The position numbers and the translations under genes were made by a program. A stretch of 36,013 bases of DNA. Origin: Bacteroidales bacterium (GTDB lineage: Bacteria > Bacteroidota > Bacteroidia > Bacteroidales > UBA932). The stretch covers positions 1 to 36,013 of the forward strand of contig JAFUDQ010000029.1 in assembly GCA_017459075.1 (NCBI GenBank), in the 5' to 3' direction. Under the pieces are notes generated by a model. That model was not told the origin of the DNA, did not search any database, and saw nothing but the letters and a program-made list of their open reading frames with translations. Position 1 is the first letter of the stretch. Each line of letters opens with the position of its first letter. Below are positions 15,977 through 24,141 of this stretch, one piece after another.

Positions 15977-18748
15977 ATGGCGGAAATTAGACTTAACAAA
16001 CTTACAAGACAATTCAATATTGGTCTTCAGACGCTGGTTGATTTCTTGAATGAGAAGGGAGCCGGCGTAGACCTCAATCCTAATGCAAAGGTGTCTGACG
16101 AATTCCTTCCTGCTTTGGAGAAGAAGTTCGGAGAGGATTTGCGTGCAAAGCAGGATGCAGAGAGGGTGGATATCAAGATGAAGGAAATCATTGAGAAAAA
16201 CACCCGCCGTGCTTCTGACGATGATTTTGAGGATGAGCCTGCGCGTGAAACTATTATAAAGAATACAGGATTGTCCGGGACTATTCCGGCAGAGGAGCCT
16301 GCTCCCGCACCGGAGCCTGTGATTGAACCGGAACCTGCTCCTGTTGCCGAGCCGGAACCCGAACCCATGGTTGAACCGGAGCCCGTGGTTGAACCGGAAC
16401 CTGAGACGGAGCCTGAACCCGAGCCTGTAGTTGAGCCAGAGCCCATACCTGAGCCCGAGCCCGTACCAGAGCCGGAACCTGATCCTGAGCCCGCAGTTCA
16501 GGAAGAGCCTGTTGTTGAAGTTAAGAAGGAGGAGACCCCTGCCGCTACCCCTGAAGAGGCTGCTCCTGTAAAGACAAACGGCATCAAGGTTCTTGGAAAG
16601 GTAGATCTTTCACAGTTCAATCCTAAGAAAAACAAGAAGCGCGACCGTATCAAGGGCGGCAGCCAGAAGGTTGACGTTACCAAGATAGAGAGCGAGGAAC
16701 GCGGCGGTAAAGGCGGTTCAGAGAAGAACAAACAGCAGCAGCCACAGAACCAGAAGAACAAGGAGCAGGGCGGCGGCAAAAAGAAGAACCGCGAACGCTT
16801 CAAACCGGTAATGACCGAGGCTCAGGCCGAGGAAATGCAGAAGGAAATCCAGAAGCAGGTCAAGGAGACCTACGCAAGGATGAATGAGAATAAGGGTAAG
16901 AACAACTTCGGCGCAAAATACCGCAAGGAAAAGAGGGAGGCTGCCAGCCAGAAGATGCAGGAGGAGTTTGAGGCAGCGGAGGCAGAGAAGACTGTTCTCA
17001 AGGTTACAGAGTTCGTAACGGTAAACGACCTGGCAACCCTTATGAACAATACTCCGGTTAACAAAGTCATCACCGCTTGCTTCAATCTTGGTCTTATGGT
17101 TTCCATCAACCAAAGACTTGATGCAGAGGCACTTGTGCTTGTTGCAGAGGAGTTCGGCTACAAGGTTGAGTTCACAACCGCAGAGCTTACCAGCGAGATT
17201 GAACAGGAGGAAGATATCCAGGACGACGGCAATCTTGTTACCCGTCCGCCTATCATTACCGTCATGGGTCACGTAGACCATGGTAAGACTTCCCTGCTGG
17301 ACTATATCCGCAAGACCAATGTGATTGCCGGTGAGGCCGGCGGTATCACCCAGCACATCGGTGCATACAATGTAGAGTTGCCGGACGGCCGTCACATTAC
17401 CTTCTTGGATACCCCTGGCCACGAAGCCTTCACCGCCATGCGTGCCCGTGGTGCACAGCTTACAGACCTTGCCATCATCATTATTGCTGCCGATGATGCA
17501 GTGATGCCGCAGACAGTAGAGGCCATCAACCATGCACAGGCTGCCGGCGTTCCTATGGTGTTCGCTATCAACAAGATAGATAAGCCGGGAGCACAGCCGG
17601 AGAAGATTTACCAGCAGCTGGCTCAGATGAATATTCTTACAGAGGCCTGGGGCGGTAAATACCAGTGCCAGGAAATCTCTGCAAAGCAGGGCATCGGCGT
17701 TGATAAACTGCTGGAGAAGGTTCTTCTTGAGACCGACATGATGGATCTTAAGGCCAATCCCAAGAAACTTGGTGTCGGTGCTGTGATTGAATCTTCACTT
17801 GACAAAGGCCGCGGTTTCGTAGCTACGGTGCTTGTGCAGAACGGAACTCTTCACAAAGGCGACATGCTTCTTAGCGGATGCTTCTACGGCCGCGTGAAGG
17901 CTATGCTCAATGAGCGTGGACAGATGGTTTCAGAGGCCGGTCCTTCCACCCCTGTTTCAGTGCTCGGCCTTAACGGAGCACCAAGCGCAGGTGAGAAGTT
18001 CAATGTAATGCTGGATGAGAAAGAAGCTAAGGCTACCGCCAACAAGCGTGAGCAGCTTATCCGCATCCAGGGCATCAAGACCCAGAAGCATATGACTTTG
18101 GATGAAATTGGCCGCCGTATCGCCATCGGCAACTTCAAGGAACTTAATATCATCGTCAAAGGTGATGTGGATGGTTCTGTAGAGGCTCTGTCTGATTCAC
18201 TCATCAAGCTTTCTACGGAGGAGGTCAGCGTGAATGTAATCCACAAGGCTGTGGGTGCAATCTCTGAGTCCGATGTTATGCTTGCCACTGCTTCAGATGC
18301 CATCATCATCGGCTTCCAGGTACGTCCTTCTTCAGACGCCCGTAATATGGCAGAGAAGGAAGGTATCGAAATCCGCTTGTACTCAGTAATTTACGACGCG
18401 ATTGAAGAGGTCAAGGACGGTATCGAGGGTATGCTTGAGCCTGAGAAGAAAGAGGAGGTTACTGCTACCGCCCTGGTTAAGCAGCCGTTCAAGATTCCTA
18501 AGGTTGGCACCATCGCAGGTTCGCTTGTCAAGGAAGGAAAGCTTACCAAGAATACCAAGGTTCGTCTTATCCGTGACGGTATCGTGGTTTACACCGGAGA
18601 GCTTGCTTCGCTGCGCCGCGGCAAGGACGATGCCAAGGAGGTTCCCGCCGGCATGGAGTGCGGTATTGGCATAGAGAATTACAACGATATCAAAGAAGGC
18701 GACGTTATTGAGGCCTTCCAGATTATCGAAATCAAGCGCACGCTGTAA
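15977..18748 (+). CDS. infB: Translation initiation factor IF-2
   Basis: A 923-residue GTPase that places fMet-tRNA on the 30S subunit. After an N-terminal IF2-N-like domain (1-50), residues about 100-180 are a low-complexity run of Glu-Pro repeats, then a Lys/Arg/Gln-rich linker. A second IF2-N domain lies near 345-405. The GTPase domain shows GHVDHGKT (431-438), DTPGH and NKID, followed by domains II-IV. The Glu-Pro tract is longer and more regular than usual. A strong terminator follows at 18776. Confidence 0.96.
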
Positions 18749-18775
18749 CCCGCCATTTCTCACACGAATACTTTA

Positions 18776-18816
18776 CTGCCGCTACCCCACCCCGGGATAG
18801 CGGCAGTTTTTTTATT
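18776..18816 (+). terminator. Terminator of the rimP-nusA-infB operon
   Basis: A 9-bp stem, ctgccgcta (18776-18784) with tagcggcag (18798-18806), is followed by seven Ts. Its T run overlaps the stop codon of the convergent PqqD-like gene. Related hairpins recur at 33250-33282 and, as a half, at 21612-21622. Confidence 0.85.
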
Positions 18817-19078
18817 GTTCAGGTACCTCTTGAGTGGCGCCGGTTACTGACCACTTTTCTGCGACAGAGAGTACGTCTTTCATGGCTTGTTCCAAGGGTA
18901 TTTGATATGTGCCTGAAAGCCATTGGGCTATTCTTTCCGCATCTACACCATCCTGCATTTGATTCAGGATTTCTGCGGCAGTGCGATTCAGCTTCATGGC
19001 CTTGGTTTCATTTTGTCCGTTTTTGAATATAGCCACAAAATGACCGGCTAAAGGTAATATCTTCAGGGACTTTCTCAT
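18812..19078 (-). CDS. PqqD-like RiPP recognition protein
   Basis: An 88-residue protein. From about residue 28 it matches the PqqD-type RiPP recognition element: KLNRTAAEILNQMQDG, then the pattern ERIAQWLSGTYQIP and EQAMKDVLSVAEKW, a winged-helix fold that binds the leader peptide and brings the core to the maturase. In PQQ and many peptide systems this protein is encoded beside a radical SAM enzyme, as here. Its ATG overlaps the maturase stop in an ATGA, so the two are coupled. The stop codon lies in the T run of the infB terminator. The fold assignment comes from sequence pattern only, and partner binding is inferred from context. Confidence 0.75.
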   Translation of the reverse strand: MRKSLKILPLAGHFVAIFKNGQNETKAMKLNRTAAEILNQMQDGVDAERIAQWLSGTYQIPLEQAMKDVLSVAEKWSVTGATQEVPEQ

Positions 19079-20415
19079 CTTTCCATACGTTTAAATGCCT
19101 GGTAATCAGCCAAAACAGACTTTTTGGTTTCTGCCATGAAGTCATCCCGCATTTCAGGATAACATGTTTCCATAAAATCACATTTTTCCAGACGAATACA
19201 CGTAGGATAAAACGGGCATGTCTGGCATGCATCCAGCTCTGGTCTGGTTTTTTTGTAAGAAAGGACCGCCTCCTTATCAAATTCGTCCTTTGAGATGTGT
19301 CCGATGAATCCGCTATCTCCATAATGTTCACATTTGCCGATGTTGCCATCGGGAAGAATAGTGATACTTCCGTCATTAACAGCCATACATTGCTTTACCA
19401 GGGTTAAATGTTGAAGTGGTTTCGTATCTGAGAATCCGGCCACATCAATAATTTTTTGAATCTGGGCTTTTTTCTGGTAAAGCAGCTCGCGTTTTTCATC
19501 GTTATATATGGCAGCATTTCGCAAATGCTCCCCCATCAAGGGATGGGAATAGATGCACAAACCAGACTCCCCTTTGAACTCCTGGCACAATTCTTCTGTC
19601 AACGCTATCAGATTGTCTGCATTGTATGAATCTACGTTCAATCGTATTTTTACTTGAATACCCGTTCCCAGAAGAATACGTATGTTGTCCATCACTCGCC
19701 GATATGCATTTACGCCAGGGTAGATATAGGACTTTGCCCGGTTATACACTTCTTCCGTTCCGTCAAGCGTGATTTGAATCCCGGTCATGTTCCAGTCGTT
19801 CCTCGCCTCCTTTGCCGTAGCTTCATCAAACAGGTAAGCATTGGATATCATTCCGGAGACAAAACTGACTCCTGCCGCTTTCAAATCCTTACATATTATG
19901 GATATTACCTCTTTGTTATAAAGAGGCTCGCCGCCGAACCACTGTATTTTCAATTTCTTTCCTCCGGCATGATGCATCATATACGAGGCTACGCTATGAG
20001 CAGTCTGGGCATTCATTCTTTTTTTAGCGATGCCTTTTTCATAACAATAAAAACAACGTGCATTGCAATCAGTTGTAGTAAAGACTGTATAAGATGTAAT
20101 ATTCGGATTGGTAGGTAAAAGCTCCCTGGAGATGTCAAGGACCTGATTAGCAAGGGTCTTGTCATCAAATTCCTCTGGGACATAGAGCCAATTTTTAATC
20201 AGTTCGATTGATAGTGTACCAGTGGCTGACAATGCTTCAGATTCTTGAGGCTCAAGCAAAACCATTGACTTGATAAGTGTATTGTATAGTAACAATCCAT
20301 CCTCTGTCGGTATGTGAAGGGTATACACCATGGGACGCCAAGAGGCGTTGCAATCGTCCGGCTGTGCGCCCAATAATTTGTCAAATGGTGGGGCGATAGG
20401 ATAAATCTGGACCAT
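19075..20415 (-). CDS. Radical SAM/SPASM peptide maturase
   Basis: A 446-residue enzyme. The radical SAM cluster motif is CNARCFYC (Cys117, 121, 124), followed by the SAM-binding WFGGEP at 159-164 and a strand ending ITLDGT. The C-terminal SPASM region has Cys343, GNIGKC (Cys362), CQTC (397, 400) and Cys406, 412 and 418, enough to hold two auxiliary Fe-S clusters. Such enzymes install thioether, C-C or other cross-links in ribosomal peptides. The precursor gene lies 82 bp upstream and a PqqD-like gene overlaps the end. Given a Cys-rich core, sulfur-to-carbon thioether formation is a reasonable guess, not shown. No transporter or leader peptidase gene is adjacent. Confidence 0.87.
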   Translation of the reverse strand: MVQIYPIAPPFDKLLGAQPDDCNASWRPMVYTLHIPTEDGLLLYNTLIKSMVLLEPQESEALSATGTLSIELIKNWLYVPEEFDDKTLANQVLDISRELLPTNPNITSYTVFTTTDCNARCFYCYEKGIAKKRMNAQTAHSVASYMMHHAGGKKLKIQWFGGEPLYNKEVISIICKDLKAAGVSFVSGMISNAYLFDEATAKEARNDWNMTGIQITLDGTEEVYNRAKSYIYPGVNAYRRVMDNIRILLGTGIQVKIRLNVDSYNADNLIALTEELCQEFKGESGLCIYSHPLMGEHLRNAAIYNDEKRELLYQKKAQIQKIIDVAGFSDTKPLQHLTLVKQCMAVNDGSITILPDGNIGKCEHYGDSGFIGHISKDEFDKEAVLSYKKTRPELDACQTCPFYPTCIRLEKCDFMETCYPEMRDDFMAETKKSVLADYQAFKRMER

Positions 20416-20435
20416 GATTCAAATGCTTACAAGAC

Positions 20436-20465
20436 AAAAAACATCGGACACGTACTTCCGATGTT
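20436..20465 (-). terminator. Terminator-like hairpin between RiPP precursor and maturase
   Basis: A perfect 9-bp stem (20440-20448 with 20457-20465) around an 8-nt loop, followed on the minus strand by TTTTTTG. It sits 33 bp after the precursor stop. Partial read-through would give abundant precursor and little enzyme, a usual layout in RiPP operons. Confidence 0.75.
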
Positions 20466-20497
20466 TAATTGCAAACAGTTTTGGTAAAACTAAATGA

Positions 20498-20650
20498 CTA
20501 GCGACCGCCACCGGAGCTACCACCGGAGCCATGACCGATACCAATATTACAAGTGCATTCGGTAACACTCTGGCAAAAACAGCCTTCTGTTTCAATCTCC
20601 AAGGCCTCAATCTCTGGAGCCTCGTACTTGTTCATAACCTTGTTTTCCAT
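20498..20650 (-). CDS. RiPP precursor peptide with Cys-rich core and Gly/Ser tail
   Basis: A 50-residue peptide, found by reading the minus strand upstream of the maturase. The first 22 residues look like a leader: MENKVMNKYEAPEIEALEIE is acidic and helical, and the KYEAPEIEALEI stretch resembles the start of many small Bacteroidales peptides. A core from residue 24 follows. It carries two CxC pairs in CFCQSVTECTC (Cys24, 26, 32, 34), then NIGIGHG and a tail made only of Gly and Ser ending in Arg. The codons are unambiguous and the stop is TAG at 20498-20500. Position, size, leader/core layout and a consensus promoter all support a modified peptide product. Its chemistry and activity are unknown. 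Confidence 0.82.
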   Translation of the reverse strand: MENKVMNKYEAPEIEALEIETEGCFCQSVTECTCNIGIGHGSGGSSGGGR

Positions 20651-20670
20651 ATTAAACGTCAATTAATGAG

Positions 20671-20702
20671 CAAATATACTACCCCCCCCCCACTTTTCCA
20701 AA
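20671..20702 (-). promoter_or_regulatory. RiPP precursor promoter with a G10 homopolymer in the spacer
   Basis: Minus strand: -33 TTTG at 20699-20702, a 20-bp spacer, then -7 TATATTTG at 20671-20678, placing the transcription start roughly 15 bp before the ATG. Ten consecutive Gs (C run at 20682-20691 on the plus strand) fill half of the spacer. Gain or loss of a G changes the spacing between boxes, so promoter strength can switch by slippage. The current length gives optimal spacing, i.e. predicted ON. Confidence 0.8.
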
Positions 20703-20748
20703 TTTTTTTAAAAAAGTTTCATTTCTGACTATCCTGAAGCGAAGCCAT

Positions 20749-20802
20749 TGTCATCCCGAGCGATTCCCCTGTCATCCTGAGCGAAGCCGAAGGATCTACT
20801 GT
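20749..20802. repeat. Interspersed GTCATCCTGAGC-type repeat, one partial and one full copy
   Basis: A partial copy (tgtcatcccgagcgattccc) is followed by a fuller one running gtcatcctgagcgaagccg and ending aaggatctact. It separates the RiPP locus from the broken hipA gene. Related copies are at 4322, 30903, 33222, 33319 and, as a fragment, 33881. Confidence 0.8.
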
Positions 20803-20812
20803 TATACCTAGA

Positions 20813-21263
20813 CTACAAATTGGAATTTAATCTCCTGTGAAGGAGCTCAACGTACGCCGTCTTGAGTTCATCAGAAAGGAATGAGCACTGAATCTCTTCT
20901 TCAAATTTAGGAAGGAGACCCACATACTTCTTTTTTACTCGGTCAAAGACGATTTCTGGAACACCACAAGTACGATATGCAGCCTTGAAGTCAGCATCAT
21001 TTATCCGCTTCTTTTTCCCATTGAAATTTAGTGCAAACTCTTCGTCATCGGCAAAGTTGCAGATAACTGCATTTAGCAGGTCATAGGCAGGGAAAAGGAC
21101 TGGGGACTTAATAGGGCGTCCCAGACAATGGAAGGGTCAGACTGACGGGCTTCGCTGCCACATCTGAAAGATACTCCTTGTCATACTTGAACTCATAGCC
21201 CTCATCCGTCTCTTCAAGGATGCCGGCAACGTTCCCTTTGTATTGAATCAATGCTTTACTCAT
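20813..21263 (-). pseudogene. HipA-like kinase remnant: N- and C-terminal ends joined, middle deleted
   Basis: The first 51 codons (21263-21108) give the HipA N-terminal subdomain, with LIQYKGNVAGILEETDEGY and AKPVSLTLPL. They stop at a TAA exactly where a deletion begins. In the next frame the sequence resumes with FPAYDLLNA, a conserved segment of the HipA kinase C-terminal half, and continues to a natural stop at 20813. More than half of the kinase, including the catalytic core, is missing. HipA phosphorylates glutamyl- or related tRNA synthetases; this copy cannot. Its start overlaps hipB by ATGA. It could also derive from the two-subunit HipS/HipT arrangement with the split genes fused. 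Confidence 0.82.
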
Positions 21264-21466
21264 TTCATCTTCTTTTGAGGAACCAGTTCGTACCCGAACA
21301 AATCAAAAACCTGGGCAACCTTGTCGAGGCGGACTGTAGCCTCGCCCTGTTCCAGTTCGCGGACGAAGTTCAGGCCAACGCCGGACTTCATCGCGAGGTC
21401 CATCTGCGTAAGGCCATGCTCTTTCCGCAAAGATTTTAAGGTTGAAGATAGTACGTTTCTATTCAT
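21260..21466 (-). CDS. HipB-like antitoxin/repressor (HTH_3)
   Basis: A 68-residue Xre-type helix-turn-helix protein. The HTH spans KSLRKEHGLTQMDLAMKSGV, followed by NFVRELEQGE, and the C-terminal VAQVFDLFGYELVP strand matches HipB. HipB neutralises HipA and represses the operon. The gene is intact although hipA is gutted. Start ATG 21466 was chosen because the longer frame to 21496 would run through the promoter. TACATCC half-sites upstream (21470-21558) are the likely operator. Confidence 0.85.
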   Translation of the reverse strand: MNRNVLSSTLKSLRKEHGLTQMDLAMKSGVGLNFVRELEQGEATVRLDKVAQVFDLFGYELVPQKKMK

Positions 21467-21469
21467 AAT

Positions 21470-21558
21470 TACATTCGTTCGGATGCAAATACACAAAATT
21501 TTTCTTAAATTACATCACAACGGATGTATTTTTTAAAGAAATACACAGATTACATCCG
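21470..21558 (-). promoter_or_regulatory. Operator-like TACATCC half-sites upstream of hipB
   Basis: Five half-sites are seen: tacattcg (21470-21477), cggatgca (21480-21487), tacatc (21511-21516), gatgta (21523-21528) and tacatccg (21551-21558). They form two inverted pairs and a single site. A weak -7 (TGTATTTG, minus strand, 21486-21493) overlaps the first pair, so a bound repressor would block it. Autorepression by HipB is inferred. Confidence 0.5.
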
Positions 21559-21611
21559 AAGAGATATAAAAAATCATCTCCAGAAGAAATCGAGAAGGGC
21601 CTGATGGCCGA

Positions 21612-21740
21612 ATAGCGGCAGTTCTTATGTCATCCCCGTCCTCCGCCTTAAAATCATGGTCAATCTCATAGAGATACATTCAGTTCATGAGTGTGGCCAT
21701 TGTGCTCATACTATCCAGCTCCTCGCCGGCTGATACGACG
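21612..21740. repeat. Mosaic of fragments copied from three other places in the window
   Basis: 21612-21637 matches 33273-33298 with two mismatches. 21642-21678 is identical over 37 bp to 33501-33537, inside a lipoprotein gene. 21680-21728 matches 26160-26226, the signal-peptide start of the AraC remnant, with about 20 bp deleted. The pieces are joined directly. The whole gap 21559-21780 holds no gene. Confidence 0.8.
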
Positions 21741-21780
21741 GAATCCCTTTCCTATCCCATCTGAAAGACCTGCACTGAAA

Positions 21781-21804
21781 AGAAAACGCTCACCGAAGTG
21801 AGCG
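21781..21804 (-). terminator. Terminator of the three-lipoprotein operon
   Basis: On the minus strand CGCTCAC, a TTCG tetraloop and GTGAGCG are followed by TTTTCTTTTC. The hairpin contains the stop codon of the C13 protease gene. Confidence 0.8.
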
Positions 21805-24141
21805 GATAAATTCCCCGGGGCCGTCTAAATAAAGATTTCCATAGGTTGCCGCGCCAATAATCTTTGCGTGGGAGCCAAGGGTATGCGCGGCACAGTAAAG
21901 GAACAGGTCGCGGAAACTGCCGTCAGGATTCTGGGTAAGGTGCTCAGTCAGATTCAAGGAGAACCTGTCACACATCCACAGGCGCGCATCGGCGTTCCAA
22001 TGGTCGGCCCAAGACATCTCGTTTGCGCTGGCTCCGGAAATGGCAAGCACTCCGGGGATCCCTTCGACAGGGCGAATGACGGCTTCTCCGTAGCATGGTT
22101 CCACACATATCAGAAGCTTCCGGAACGTCATCGTGCTCACTGTTTCCTTGAGAAGCCCGGAACCGAAACCATTGCCGGGCTGCTCATCTCTCCAGCAGAA
22201 TTCATCCGTCCCACCGTTGAATACGCTGTCCCCGTGACCGCTCCAAAACAGCAGGACATTAGTCCCCGAATCCTGAGGCAGGACAGTCTGAAGGCGTTCG
22301 CTTCGCTTGCCAAGAAGGATATTCGCAATGTCGGAAGGTGAGATGTCTTTGCTGTCATAATCGACCGTTGCAGCAGGCAGGTGGTCGGTTCCTCCAAAGA
22401 GGTCAGGTCCATCCTCGGCATTTCGGACAACGCCCCTGTTCGGATTATTCTTATCCATGGCCATATCCTTGTCAAGTACAAGAATAATATGATCATCGGG
22501 GAAGCCTCCGCTCCTGAGCATCTGATACATGCCAAGGACATCTGCCTGATGCCGATAATTGCTGAATCCGCTGCTGCCTTGCACCAGAACGGCATATTGA
22601 TCCGTGAGAGCAGGATAATTATTCATTGCCGTACCGCCTTCTGCCTGAGTATCAAAATCGGCGCCTGCCTGCTGCTCGTTGTAGAGGTACAACCAAGAGG
22701 CATTGGCGTCGGCGGTACGGATACCGGAGCCGCCGAAATAATTGCGGTGATGGATTTTTCCGTCCAGAATCTGCCAGTGAACGTAGGTGGTGGCAGTGGC
22801 TGCCGTGTATGTGTCCTTACCGAAATTGATTTCACCCGAAGCCCCGATAAAGTGAAGCAGCCGTCCCTGCTCGAGGGCGTTCAGATACACTTCCATTGAC
22901 GTAGCGTTCCAGACCGCCCCACCCAACTCGGAGCCGTCAGAGTTCATGGCAATATCGATAATGGCCTGGTTGACAGACTTATTGTCAGCGCCGTTCCCCG
23001 TGTGTTCTACATAGCAAGCGGCGAAACCTGCCAGAATAAGGGCATCGTAAAATTTGCATTCCTCAAATCCCGGCTTGCTCCCGAAACGTACTTCGTAGCT
23101 AAGCTCGAAACCAGTGGAAGGATCAGCATATGGGGAAAAACCCTCGTGCCCTTGCAGTATCTTCCAAGAACGTGGTCCTATGGCATCCAGTTCTTCTTCG
23201 CAGAGACCCGGAGTGGCGAAGTAGGTCCTGTAATTCGATTTGAACATTTGCCACTCTTCGTCATTTGCCGGGTCATCAGGGTCATCACTGTCGTGAAGCA
23301 GGGACCAGAATTCATCGTCCATTGTCGCTATCCGGTTGGCGCGGGCTACATCGTAAATCTGTCTTGCCGTCTCTGCTACGCAGAAGATTGCGGACTTTGC
23401 TTTTCCCTGCCCGTCCATGATTTTACGGTAGGCATCGAGCTTTGAGAGGAGATCATCCGTACTTCGGTACTGGATATTTTGCTGAAGATCGATGTCAACT
23501 TGGAGCGAATAGAACGGTGCCCAGTAATTGAATGTCATTCCGTAGGCATCTTCAGGAGAGAAGAAAGCCGCGCGTGGGCTGTCGAGGATTTCGCCGTAAT
23601 ATTTGCTCAAAGAGGCATAACGGCTCATCACGAGTCCGGTAAATGAAACGTCACTTTCTGTCAGGGACCACAGGAAGGGATCCCGATTGATTCTCATTCC
23701 GCTGGTCGTCACGGCATAACGGCGGATGATGTCTTCACTGGTGGCTGTGGGCGCTATGAGGGGCTTGCCCGTTCTCTGGCAGGCCGGTGCGAGTGCAGCA
23801 AGGTCCTCATTTCCGAAAGGGCCGATGACTGCAAGCACATCCTCCCTGCCGGAGAGTTCCCGGCTGAGTTTCACAAGGTCTTCCGATGATTCATCATACC
23901 ATTCGAGATGCAGGTCTATGGCTGTAGAGTTATGAAGCTGCGCCTGACGGAAATTTTCAAGAAACCATGTTGCCGTGCGTTCAAGCCGGACCTTAGTGAT
24001 TGCATCTTCTACAGGTGCAACGATGGCCACAGTATGTTTAATCCAGCGTCGCTGACTCTGGATTTCTCCTTTATCTGAGCACGATGTCAGAATGAGACCC
24101 AGCATAAGGCATAGCATGATATGCTTCATGCCTTTACTCAT
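21790..24141 (-). CDS. Lipoprotein fusing a periplasmic-binding-protein domain to a C13 (legumain-like) cysteine peptidase
   Basis: A 783-residue protein with a signal sequence and lipobox LTSC (Cys21). Residues about 35-480 look like a type I periplasmic binding domain of the branched-chain amino acid receptor class, with VLAVIGPFGNEDLAALAPAC and GKPLIAPTATSED. Residues about 515-760 match the C13 peptidase fold. A strand YAVLVQGSSGFSNYRHQADV begins it, the catalytic His636 is in FWSGHGD, and the catalytic Cys683 is in ICVEPCYGEA, with the usual hydrophobic strands before each. C13 enzymes cut after Asn or Asp, or act as transamidases (GPI8). A ligand-gated surface protease is a possible reading, but inferred. 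It overlaps the upstream gene by 8 bp and is last in its operon. Confidence 0.8.
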   Translation of the reverse strand: MSKGMKHIMLCLMLGLILTSCSDKGEIQSQRRWIKHTVAIVAPVEDAITKVRLERTATWFLENFRQAQLHNSTAIDLHLEWYDESSEDLVKLSRELSGREDVLAVIGPFGNEDLAALAPACQRTGKPLIAPTATSEDIIRRYAVTTSGMRINRDPFLWSLTESDVSFTGLVMSRYASLSKYYGEILDSPRAAFFSPEDAYGMTFNYWAPFYSLQVDIDLQQNIQYRSTDDLLSKLDAYRKIMDGQGKAKSAIFCVAETARQIYDVARANRIATMDDEFWSLLHDSDDPDDPANDEEWQMFKSNYRTYFATPGLCEEELDAIGPRSWKILQGHEGFSPYADPSTGFELSYEVRFGSKPGFEECKFYDALILAGFAACYVEHTGNGADNKSVNQAIIDIAMNSDGSELGGAVWNATSMEVYLNALEQGRLLHFIGASGEINFGKDTYTAATATTYVHWQILDGKIHHRNYFGGSGIRTADANASWLYLYNEQQAGADFDTQAEGGTAMNNYPALTDQYAVLVQGSSGFSNYRHQADVLGMYQMLRSGGFPDDHIILVLDKDMAMDKNNPNRGVVRNAEDGPDLFGGTDHLPAATVDYDSKDISPSDIANILLGKRSERLQTVLPQDSGTNVLLFWSGHGDSVFNGGTDEFCWRDEQPGNGFGSGLLKETVSTMTFRKLLICVEPCYGEAVIRPVEGIPGVLAISGASANEMSWADHWNADARLWMCDRFSLNLTEHLTQNPDGSFRDLFLYCAAHTLGSHAKIIGAATYGNLYLDGPGEFIRSLR

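Follow-up and report, generated by a model that had tools for sequence, protein, structure and literature searches.

The window examined here is a 36,013-nt contig stretch from a Bacteroidales metagenome-assembled genome (MAG) with an estimated contamination of 8%. Reading of its open reading frames (ORFs) places three genes side by side on the minus strand, which encode a short precursor peptide, a radical S-adenosylmethionine (SAM)/SPASM enzyme and a PqqD-like protein. An earlier sequence-only reading had described these frames, with a leader and a cysteine-bearing core in a 50-residue precursor, as a locus for a ribosomally synthesized and post-translationally modified peptide (RiPP). Each frame was confirmed, and the comparisons below support a real precursor, a maturase and a discrete recognition protein. 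The DNA holds the cassette itself, a leader that is conserved and a core that varies among relatives, recognition residues in the PqqD-like protein, and related genes on another contig of the genome. New here, beyond the earlier reading, are the YxxP motif of the leader, lipoprotein-linked peptides that share this leader, and peptidase, PqqD and exporter genes elsewhere in the genome. The features of the cassette are listed below (RRE, RiPP recognition element).

20650-20498, minus strand: precursor peptide gene, 50 aa plus stop (ORF reading, leader-profile match of 3.2e-9, leader/core contrast)
20582..20650, minus strand: leader, residues 1-23, with a Y9-x-x-P12-x-I14 motif; end placed after G23 by comparison with the leaders of PMC13381572
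20501..20581, minus strand: putative core, residues 24-50, with four cysteines (C24, C26, C32, C34)
20415-19075, minus strand: radical SAM/SPASM peptide maturase, 446 aa (family models, alignment, tree, structure model)
20101..20415, minus strand: maturase N-terminal domain, residues 1-105, with RRE-like strand-helix order in the structure model
20044..20067, minus strand: CNARCFYC radical SAM cluster motif, residues 117-124, invariant in 37 sequences
19162..19389, minus strand: SPASM-type region with seven cysteines, residues 343-418 (alignment of 37 sequences)
19078-18812, minus strand: PqqD-like discrete RRE of 88 aa, in which N31 and D68 are spaced like N33/D70 in LppB
20671..20702, minus strand: promoter-like site TTTG-N20-TATATTTG upstream of the precursor gene, with a G10 run in its spacer (20682-20691)
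20439..20466, minus strand: terminator-like stem of 10 pairs followed by a T-rich stretch, between the precursor and enzyme genes

Precursor peptide

The precursor reads MENKVMNKYEAPEIEALEIETEG followed by CFCQSVTECTCNIGIGHGSGGSSGGGR, with the putative end of the leader between the two. Its leader contains a [Y/F]xxPx[I/L/M] motif, present here as Y9, P12 and I14. The peptide matched no Pfam model, no NCBIfam model at E up to 1 and, when searched alone, nothing in the PDB at E up to 10. A leader profile built from 33 peptides at loci that lack the enzyme was searched against 1012 small ORFs from the surroundings of 42 enzyme loci and returned 22 matches at E<1, all on the strand of the enzyme, with the window precursor the best of them (3.2e-9). 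The 33 peptides had originally been found with a profile containing the window precursor, so that this result measures consistency and not independence.

The leader was more alike than the core in 37 of the 37 locus pairs whose enzymes are at least 60% identical, with median identities of 61% for the leader, 27% for the core and 68% for the enzyme; the core was counted from 17 residues after the Y/F, and the window, having no relative that close, is in none of these pairs. As in RiPP systems with a discrete RRE, the enzyme is accompanied by a short precursor whose leader is conserved and whose core varies, although four close relatives are without one in the available DNA. The missing peptides and the shortness of the frame would fit a chance ORF, with the enzyme acting on something else. 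The putative promoter, the leader match, the same-strand position in relatives and the leader/core contrast together support the precursor beyond chance, and we regard a chance frame as very improbable.

Radical SAM/SPASM maturase

The CNARCFYC motif and seven SPASM cysteines noted in the sequence-only reading were borne out by the alignment of 37 sequences. CNARCFYC is invariant, as are six of the SPASM-type cysteines (343, 362, 397, 400, 406 and 418), while C412 is conserved in at least 90%. The enzyme accordingly has the CxxxCxxC motif and about seven C-terminal cysteines of radical SAM/SPASM proteins. It matched the Pfam Radical_SAM model above cut-off (1.3e-9); the Pfam SPASM model was not among its matches. 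The best NCBIfam match was TIGR04463 (9e-35, residues 38-408), a family with which it shares a radical SAM enzyme with a SPASM-type region, followed by CefB, FlmE/OhkG, Clo7bot and PapB. Scores were far from those needed for membership in TIGR04463 (120.2 bits against a cut-off of 525), CefB (97 against 600), Clo7bot (85 against 600), PapB (82 against 340) or StsB (39 against 625). The SCIFF/ranthipeptide maturase model TIGR03974 gave 36.8 bits against a cut-off of 425, and no SCIFF-type NCBIfam precursor was matched at E up to 1.

The structure model of the enzyme (predicted local distance difference test score, pLDDT, 89) contains an N-terminal domain whose strands and helices probably follow the order seen in an RRE. 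The thioether-forming CteB was the best fold match by Foldseek (5why/5wgg, template modelling (TM) score 0.57-0.60), ahead of TigE (0.57), SuiB and SkfB; the fold alignment with CteB has an identity of 17% or less. A natural fusion of the enzyme with its PqqD-like protein, found at the relative locus L002, was also modelled (pLDDT 86.5), with a poorly predicted linker between the domains.

Probable leader recognition protein

The assignment of the small protein to the RiPP recognition fold in the sequence-only reading was upheld. It scores 37.3 bits with PF05402, above the cut-off of 23.4 (3.5e-9), as expected of a discrete RRE, and has the N31/D68 pair. Among NCBIfam models it comes closest to the lasso PqqD model, below cut-off, and among PDB entries to TfuB1 (6jx3 chain B, E 0.016). 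Profile A1, a leader profile from 15 precursors, was compared with the PDB at E up to 10 and gave two matches, the TfuA lasso leader in the same structure (6jx3 chain A, 0.93) and, ahead of it, a copper ATPase (0.17).

In the LppB RRE of linear polyphosphorylated peptides (LPP), D70 holds the leader tyrosine and N33 holds the kink at the proline, as reported in 2026 (PMC13381572). The window protein has N31 and D68 at a spacing of 37, the same as N33/D70 of LppB and the Asn/Asp of TfuB1. Leader and protein thus carry the YxxPx[L/V/I/F/A] motif and N33/D70-type residues of LPP and lasso recognition, and on this basis the PqqD-like protein is predicted as a likely binder of the YxxP leader. At the position of D68, RREs that accompany Tyr leaders have aspartate (8 of 8) and those that accompany Phe leaders have glutamate (11 of 11); a twelfth Glu RRE occurs in genome G293, where the Phe leader is cut by the contig end. 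The pattern corresponds to two changes on the tree, with one supported independent pair, and the co-variation may for this reason be taken only as a hint.

Relatives of the enzyme

A contig scan identified 39 loci with relatives of the enzyme, at most 47% identical to it. Their hosts are mostly Bacteroidales or Prevotella MAGs, many from the rumen, with several Clostridia-type organisms or Lentisphaeria. The enzyme is rare: with the own genome included in both counts, it occurs at E<=1e-40 in 5 of 299 family genomes and 2 of 121 genus genomes. In the tree the window enzyme groups with L042 and L043 (98/95), within a supported set of ten that also includes L002, L001, L003, L004, L005, L010 and L011.

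Conservation of the precursor frame in relatives, which the sequence-only reading had set as its test, turned out in favour of that reading, though not at every locus. At many loci a peptide of ~40-70 residues lies up- or downstream of the enzyme, with a charged start, [Y/F]xxP, alternating hydrophobic residues and a cysteine core. No YxxP-leader peptide was present in the available locus DNA of L001, L003, L004 and L010. More distant loci in another enzyme branch instead have Cys/Asp/Gly-rich (CGFDCG-like) peptides that lack the YxxP leader (L025:5760-5921, L036:5675-5848, L027:5716-5892 and L031:5752-5898), and the clostridial members have other peptides or none clear beside the enzyme. A PqqD-like frame stands at the end of the enzyme in 22 of 26 Bacteroidales-clade loci, fused in one (L002). 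The loci without it are L003, L007 (which has an upstream one), L017 and L023; contig ends cut some.

Individual loci show further arrangements. At L052:9938-12539 two tandem enzyme copies are followed by a PqqD gene, a 282-residue HprK-like gene, a signal-peptidase-like gene and another PqqD gene. At L053:223-1366 a YxxP peptide and a PqqD gene flank a truncated or decaying copy of the enzyme, whose frame is limited to about residues 91-274. A phage or plasmid home for the cassette was considered and set aside: phage records gave two partial enzyme matches (31-34% identity, unannotated faecal phage), and among plasmids the sole match was to a helix-turn-helix (HTH) gene.

The same leader at loci that lack the enzyme

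Searches of 99 family genomes with profile A1 gave matches in 27 at E<=0.001, 56 matches in all with the window precursor included. The own genome has four further places at E<=1 (G000:C12:89484, C18:16171, C31:7382 and C18:4490). At none of the 33 loci that were read (L072-L104) is the radical SAM enzyme beside the YxxP peptide, and a CxxxCxxC match in some frame was found at 3 of them. A lipoprotein gene follows the peptide at 28 of the 33 by a simple pattern, to which inspection by eye adds L093 and L096; at L072 and L073 the next gene encodes another kind of secreted-looking protein, and L097 is ambiguous. These lipoprotein-linked peptides have ~40-65 residues, are cysteine-poor and in many cases include an EG-x-x-C-x-S stretch. 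Those tested matched no Pfam or NCBIfam model.

Cysteine content separates the two groups. Peptides beside the enzyme have 2-10 cysteines after the motif (n=18), compared with 0-2 at enzyme-free loci (n=33), with a p of 4e-10 that is not corrected for kinship. The 18 were taken at E<0.05, leaving out four at E 0.06-0.35 and keeping L053, although its ORF runs into the truncated enzyme copy; the 33 include L072-L075, which lie in the window's own genome and hence in a genome with the enzyme elsewhere. Loci L005 and L011 bridge the arrangements, with a multi-cysteine peptide between the cassette and a lipoprotein-like gene, and on a single contig of G293 (L052) a cysteine-free lipoprotein-linked peptide occurs together with an enzyme-linked multi-cysteine one that the contig end truncates. 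The common leader with and without the enzyme amounts to a natural control, and the rise in cysteines only beside the enzyme is the main reason for thinking that the enzyme acts on cysteines.

Thioether formation is the likeliest chemistry, and a fairly probable one; the product and its bonds are predictions, as the modification type already was in the sequence-only reading. A true RiPP system with some other change, such as a carbon-carbon link, an ether or an epimer, in which the cysteines serve as metal ligands or disulphides, is unlikely but merits consideration. It would be in keeping with TigE and SuiB, which act by other chemistry, as the next structural matches after CteB, and with the wide variation in number and spacing of the core cysteines. 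Metal uptake would also suit L050 and L051, where the cassette is flanked by large ORFs that resemble, by eye only, TonB receptors and lipoproteins. Against these points stand the increase in cysteine number only where the enzyme is present and the fact that maturases of cysteine-rich peptides account for several of the top NCBIfam matches as well as for the closest fold.

Alternatively, the enzyme might be a general maturase for which the cassette precursor is one of several substrates, the lipoprotein-linked peptides being modified in trans. The four further leader peptides in the own genome, some with EG-x-x-C-x-S, are compatible with this. However, the enzyme was found in 5 of 299 genomes (taking genomes G000-G298 as the 299), and 26 of the 27 peptide-bearing genomes fall outside these five, the own genome being the exception; the peptides concerned have only 0-2 cysteines, and the cassette brings its own PqqD-like protein. 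We give such a general role a small chance.

Peptidase and exporter genes elsewhere in the genome

As the sequence-only reading had stated, no exporter is adjacent to the cassette among the window ORFs. Candidates were found through related loci. Behind the cassette of L009 are an HprK-like gene, a signal-peptidase-like gene and a second PqqD gene (Pfam scores below cut-off), and L016 has the same by eye. The L009 peptidase as query gave one match in the own genome, on contig C28 (43%, 9e-30), where a signal-peptidase-like protein, a second PqqD and an ATP-binding cassette (ABC) exporter are encoded together (L116:6251-8625, G000:C28). The C28 peptidase passes the Pfam Peptidase_S24 cut-off, whereas its match to the archaeal signal peptidase I model stays under the cut-off. 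It contains GYSMLP, LHR and GDG, which are putative catalytic stretches. The same gene set recurs at L120-L123, preceded in some genomes by an HprK-like gene, and at L120 and L122 YxxP peptides and lipoprotein genes lie beside the peptidase/PqqD/exporter genes. In the alignment, each of the 13 distinct PqqD proteins read from L105-L123 has the Asn and Asp, at a spacing of 38 or 39.

The 99 family genomes include 62 with PqqD and 56 with the peptidase. An adjacent peptidase/PqqD pair (within 300 bp) occurs in 24 of the 27 genomes with A1 peptides compared with 14 of the 72 without (Fisher p 2.6e-10, kinship ignored). The association remains when stratified by five genera (p 5.8e-5), a test limited to those genera, outside which lie the pair-bearing G122 and G229 (genus g11).

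These genes bear on where the product would go. If it stayed in the cell as a cofactor-like or regulatory peptide, the C28 genes would serve other peptides only. Reading of the ORF lists by eye showed neither an exporter nor a leader peptidase in or beside the window cassette or those of L014, L019 and L002, and C28 has its own PqqD-like protein, both of which agree with an intracellular product. The HprK-like, signal-peptidase-like and second PqqD genes behind the cassettes of L009 and, by eye, L016, and the tracking of YxxP peptides by the peptidase/PqqD pair across genomes, argue against it, and we consider it rather improbable.

Proposed pathway

We favour, with somewhat better than an even chance, a cassette for a cysteine-rich modified peptide in which leader recognition by the PqqD-like protein and a thioether maturase are combined with cutting and export in trans through C28. 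In this scheme the PqqD-like protein would bind the YxxPxI part of the leader and so offer the core to the radical SAM/SPASM enzyme. With SAM-derived radicals, that enzyme would then form thioether bridges between core cysteines and other residues. The signal-peptidase-like protein of C28, with its own PqqD-like partner and the ABC exporter, would then remove the leader and export the product. Binding, the thioether chemistry and the processing in trans are inferred from MAG data, by sequence and model evidence in which kinship is partly controlled.

Several observations weigh against this scheme. The CteB-like fold is common to enzymes of other chemistry, with TigE and SuiB close behind, and the match to the TfuA leader is weak in a search whose top match was the unrelated copper ATPase. 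The genome has an estimated contamination of 8%, and its peptidase and exporter genes lie on a different contig from the cassette, in a set that has its own PqqD and in which no HprK-like or nucleoside triphosphate (NTP) transferase gene was seen. Two of the 27 genomes (G033 and G051) have YxxP peptides with neither a PqqD nor a peptidase match, and in G096 the PqqD and peptidase genes are present but apart. The close enzyme relatives L001, L003, L004 and L010 that lack the leader peptide belong here as well.

A wider proposal, more tentative and somewhat short of an even chance, is that one signal-peptidase/recognition-protein/ABC-exporter set serves many YxxP-leader peptides in Bacteroidales, most of them encoded directly before lipoprotein genes, with the radical SAM cassettes as add-ons that make one peptide cysteine-bridged. 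For the Bacteroidales of rumen and gut, the cassettes provide a compact set of radical SAM peptides that lends itself to testing. The step in trans, if true, would explain cassettes that have no peptidase and exporter, and would point to a large and apparently undescribed peptide set tied to surface lipoproteins.

Comparison with known systems

Lasso peptide systems such as TfuB1/TfuA share the YxxP leader, the PqqD-like RRE (with both 6jx3 chains matched) and the Asn/Asp spacing of 37. The window system differs in a core that starts with cysteines and in having a radical SAM enzyme instead. A lasso peptide was rejected, since a reading by eye of the window ORFs of at least 100 aa revealed neither a lasso cyclase nor a B2 peptidase, and the putative core begins CFC. 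Butyrivibrio leaders of similar shape, for example WNTPVIETLEINETA, are given for rumen lasso peptides in PMC7533575.

The LPP of Bacillota, as described in PMC13381572, share the YxxP leader, a discrete RRE with the N/D pair, an archaeal-type signal peptidase and an MsbA-like exporter, the last two being on C28 here. Their genes form one cluster with an HprK-like kinase and an NTP transferase, and the described core set contains no radical SAM enzyme. Membership, which would place the signal peptidase, RRE, kinase, transferase and MsbA-like transporter in one cluster, was rejected: the cassette holds the RRE only, and the kinase and transferase were not seen at C28. The C28-type set itself resembles the LPP core set, but is found in Bacteroidales.

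The StsB/StsC sactipeptide system likewise pairs a radical SAM enzyme with an RRE. Several RRE groups with W/Y/LxxP-type recognition, StsC among them, appear in PMC12710340; StsC is described as actinobacterial, unlike the window system. Bacteroidales RiPP clusters with GG leaders, C39 exporters and radical SAM enzymes, as presented in PMC10352776, share the order Bacteroidales and radical SAM enzymes with the window, but their leaders are cut by a peptidase-containing transporter, and none is adjacent to the window cassette. A survey of cultured rumen strains counts only 2 ranthipeptide clusters in Bacteroidota (PMC13289728). Full-text literature searches, in which most papers were judged from listings, found no description of this cassette or of lipoprotein-linked YxxP peptides.

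Transcription signals and neighbouring genes

The stop codon of the enzyme gene and the start of the PqqD-like gene overlap in ATGA. The TTTG-20-TATATTTG pattern, a putative promoter of the Bacteroidetes consensus type, occurs 4 times in the 36-kb window with both strands counted. Five terminator-like sites were found in the 2.1-kb region, compared with 1.6 expected from shuffles. The stem between the genes may, judging from its sequence, keep enzyme transcripts below precursor transcripts, so that more precursor than enzyme would be made. No Rfam family reached its gathering score within 18700-21800.

The G10 run at 20682-20691 in the spacer of the precursor promoter is one of nine G runs of at least 9 in the genome and could act as an expression switch by slippage. 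None of the other eight lies in such a promoter spacer, and we leave phase variation by this run as a remark. One of the other runs is near another YxxP peptide, and L009 and L017 have G runs further upstream. Two copies of GTCATCC(C/T)GAGCG are located at 20750-20795, just upstream of the promoter.

The cassette is convergent with a long ORF that is probably infB. The guanine-cytosine (GC) content of the cassette (18812-20702) is 43%, compared with 49% for the window and 52% for the infB-like gene, and this low value together with the rarity of the enzyme in the genus suggests a recent gain. Beside the cassette, 21108-21496 contains a short HTH gene and a fragment that by eye resembles the start of HipA, probably a decayed toxin-antitoxin pair. 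On the same strand as the cassette, ~1.1 kb upstream of the precursor gene, 21793-24141 encodes a lipoprotein-like protein of 783 residues with a C-terminal Peptidase_C13 (legumain-type) domain, which is taken as a separate unit.

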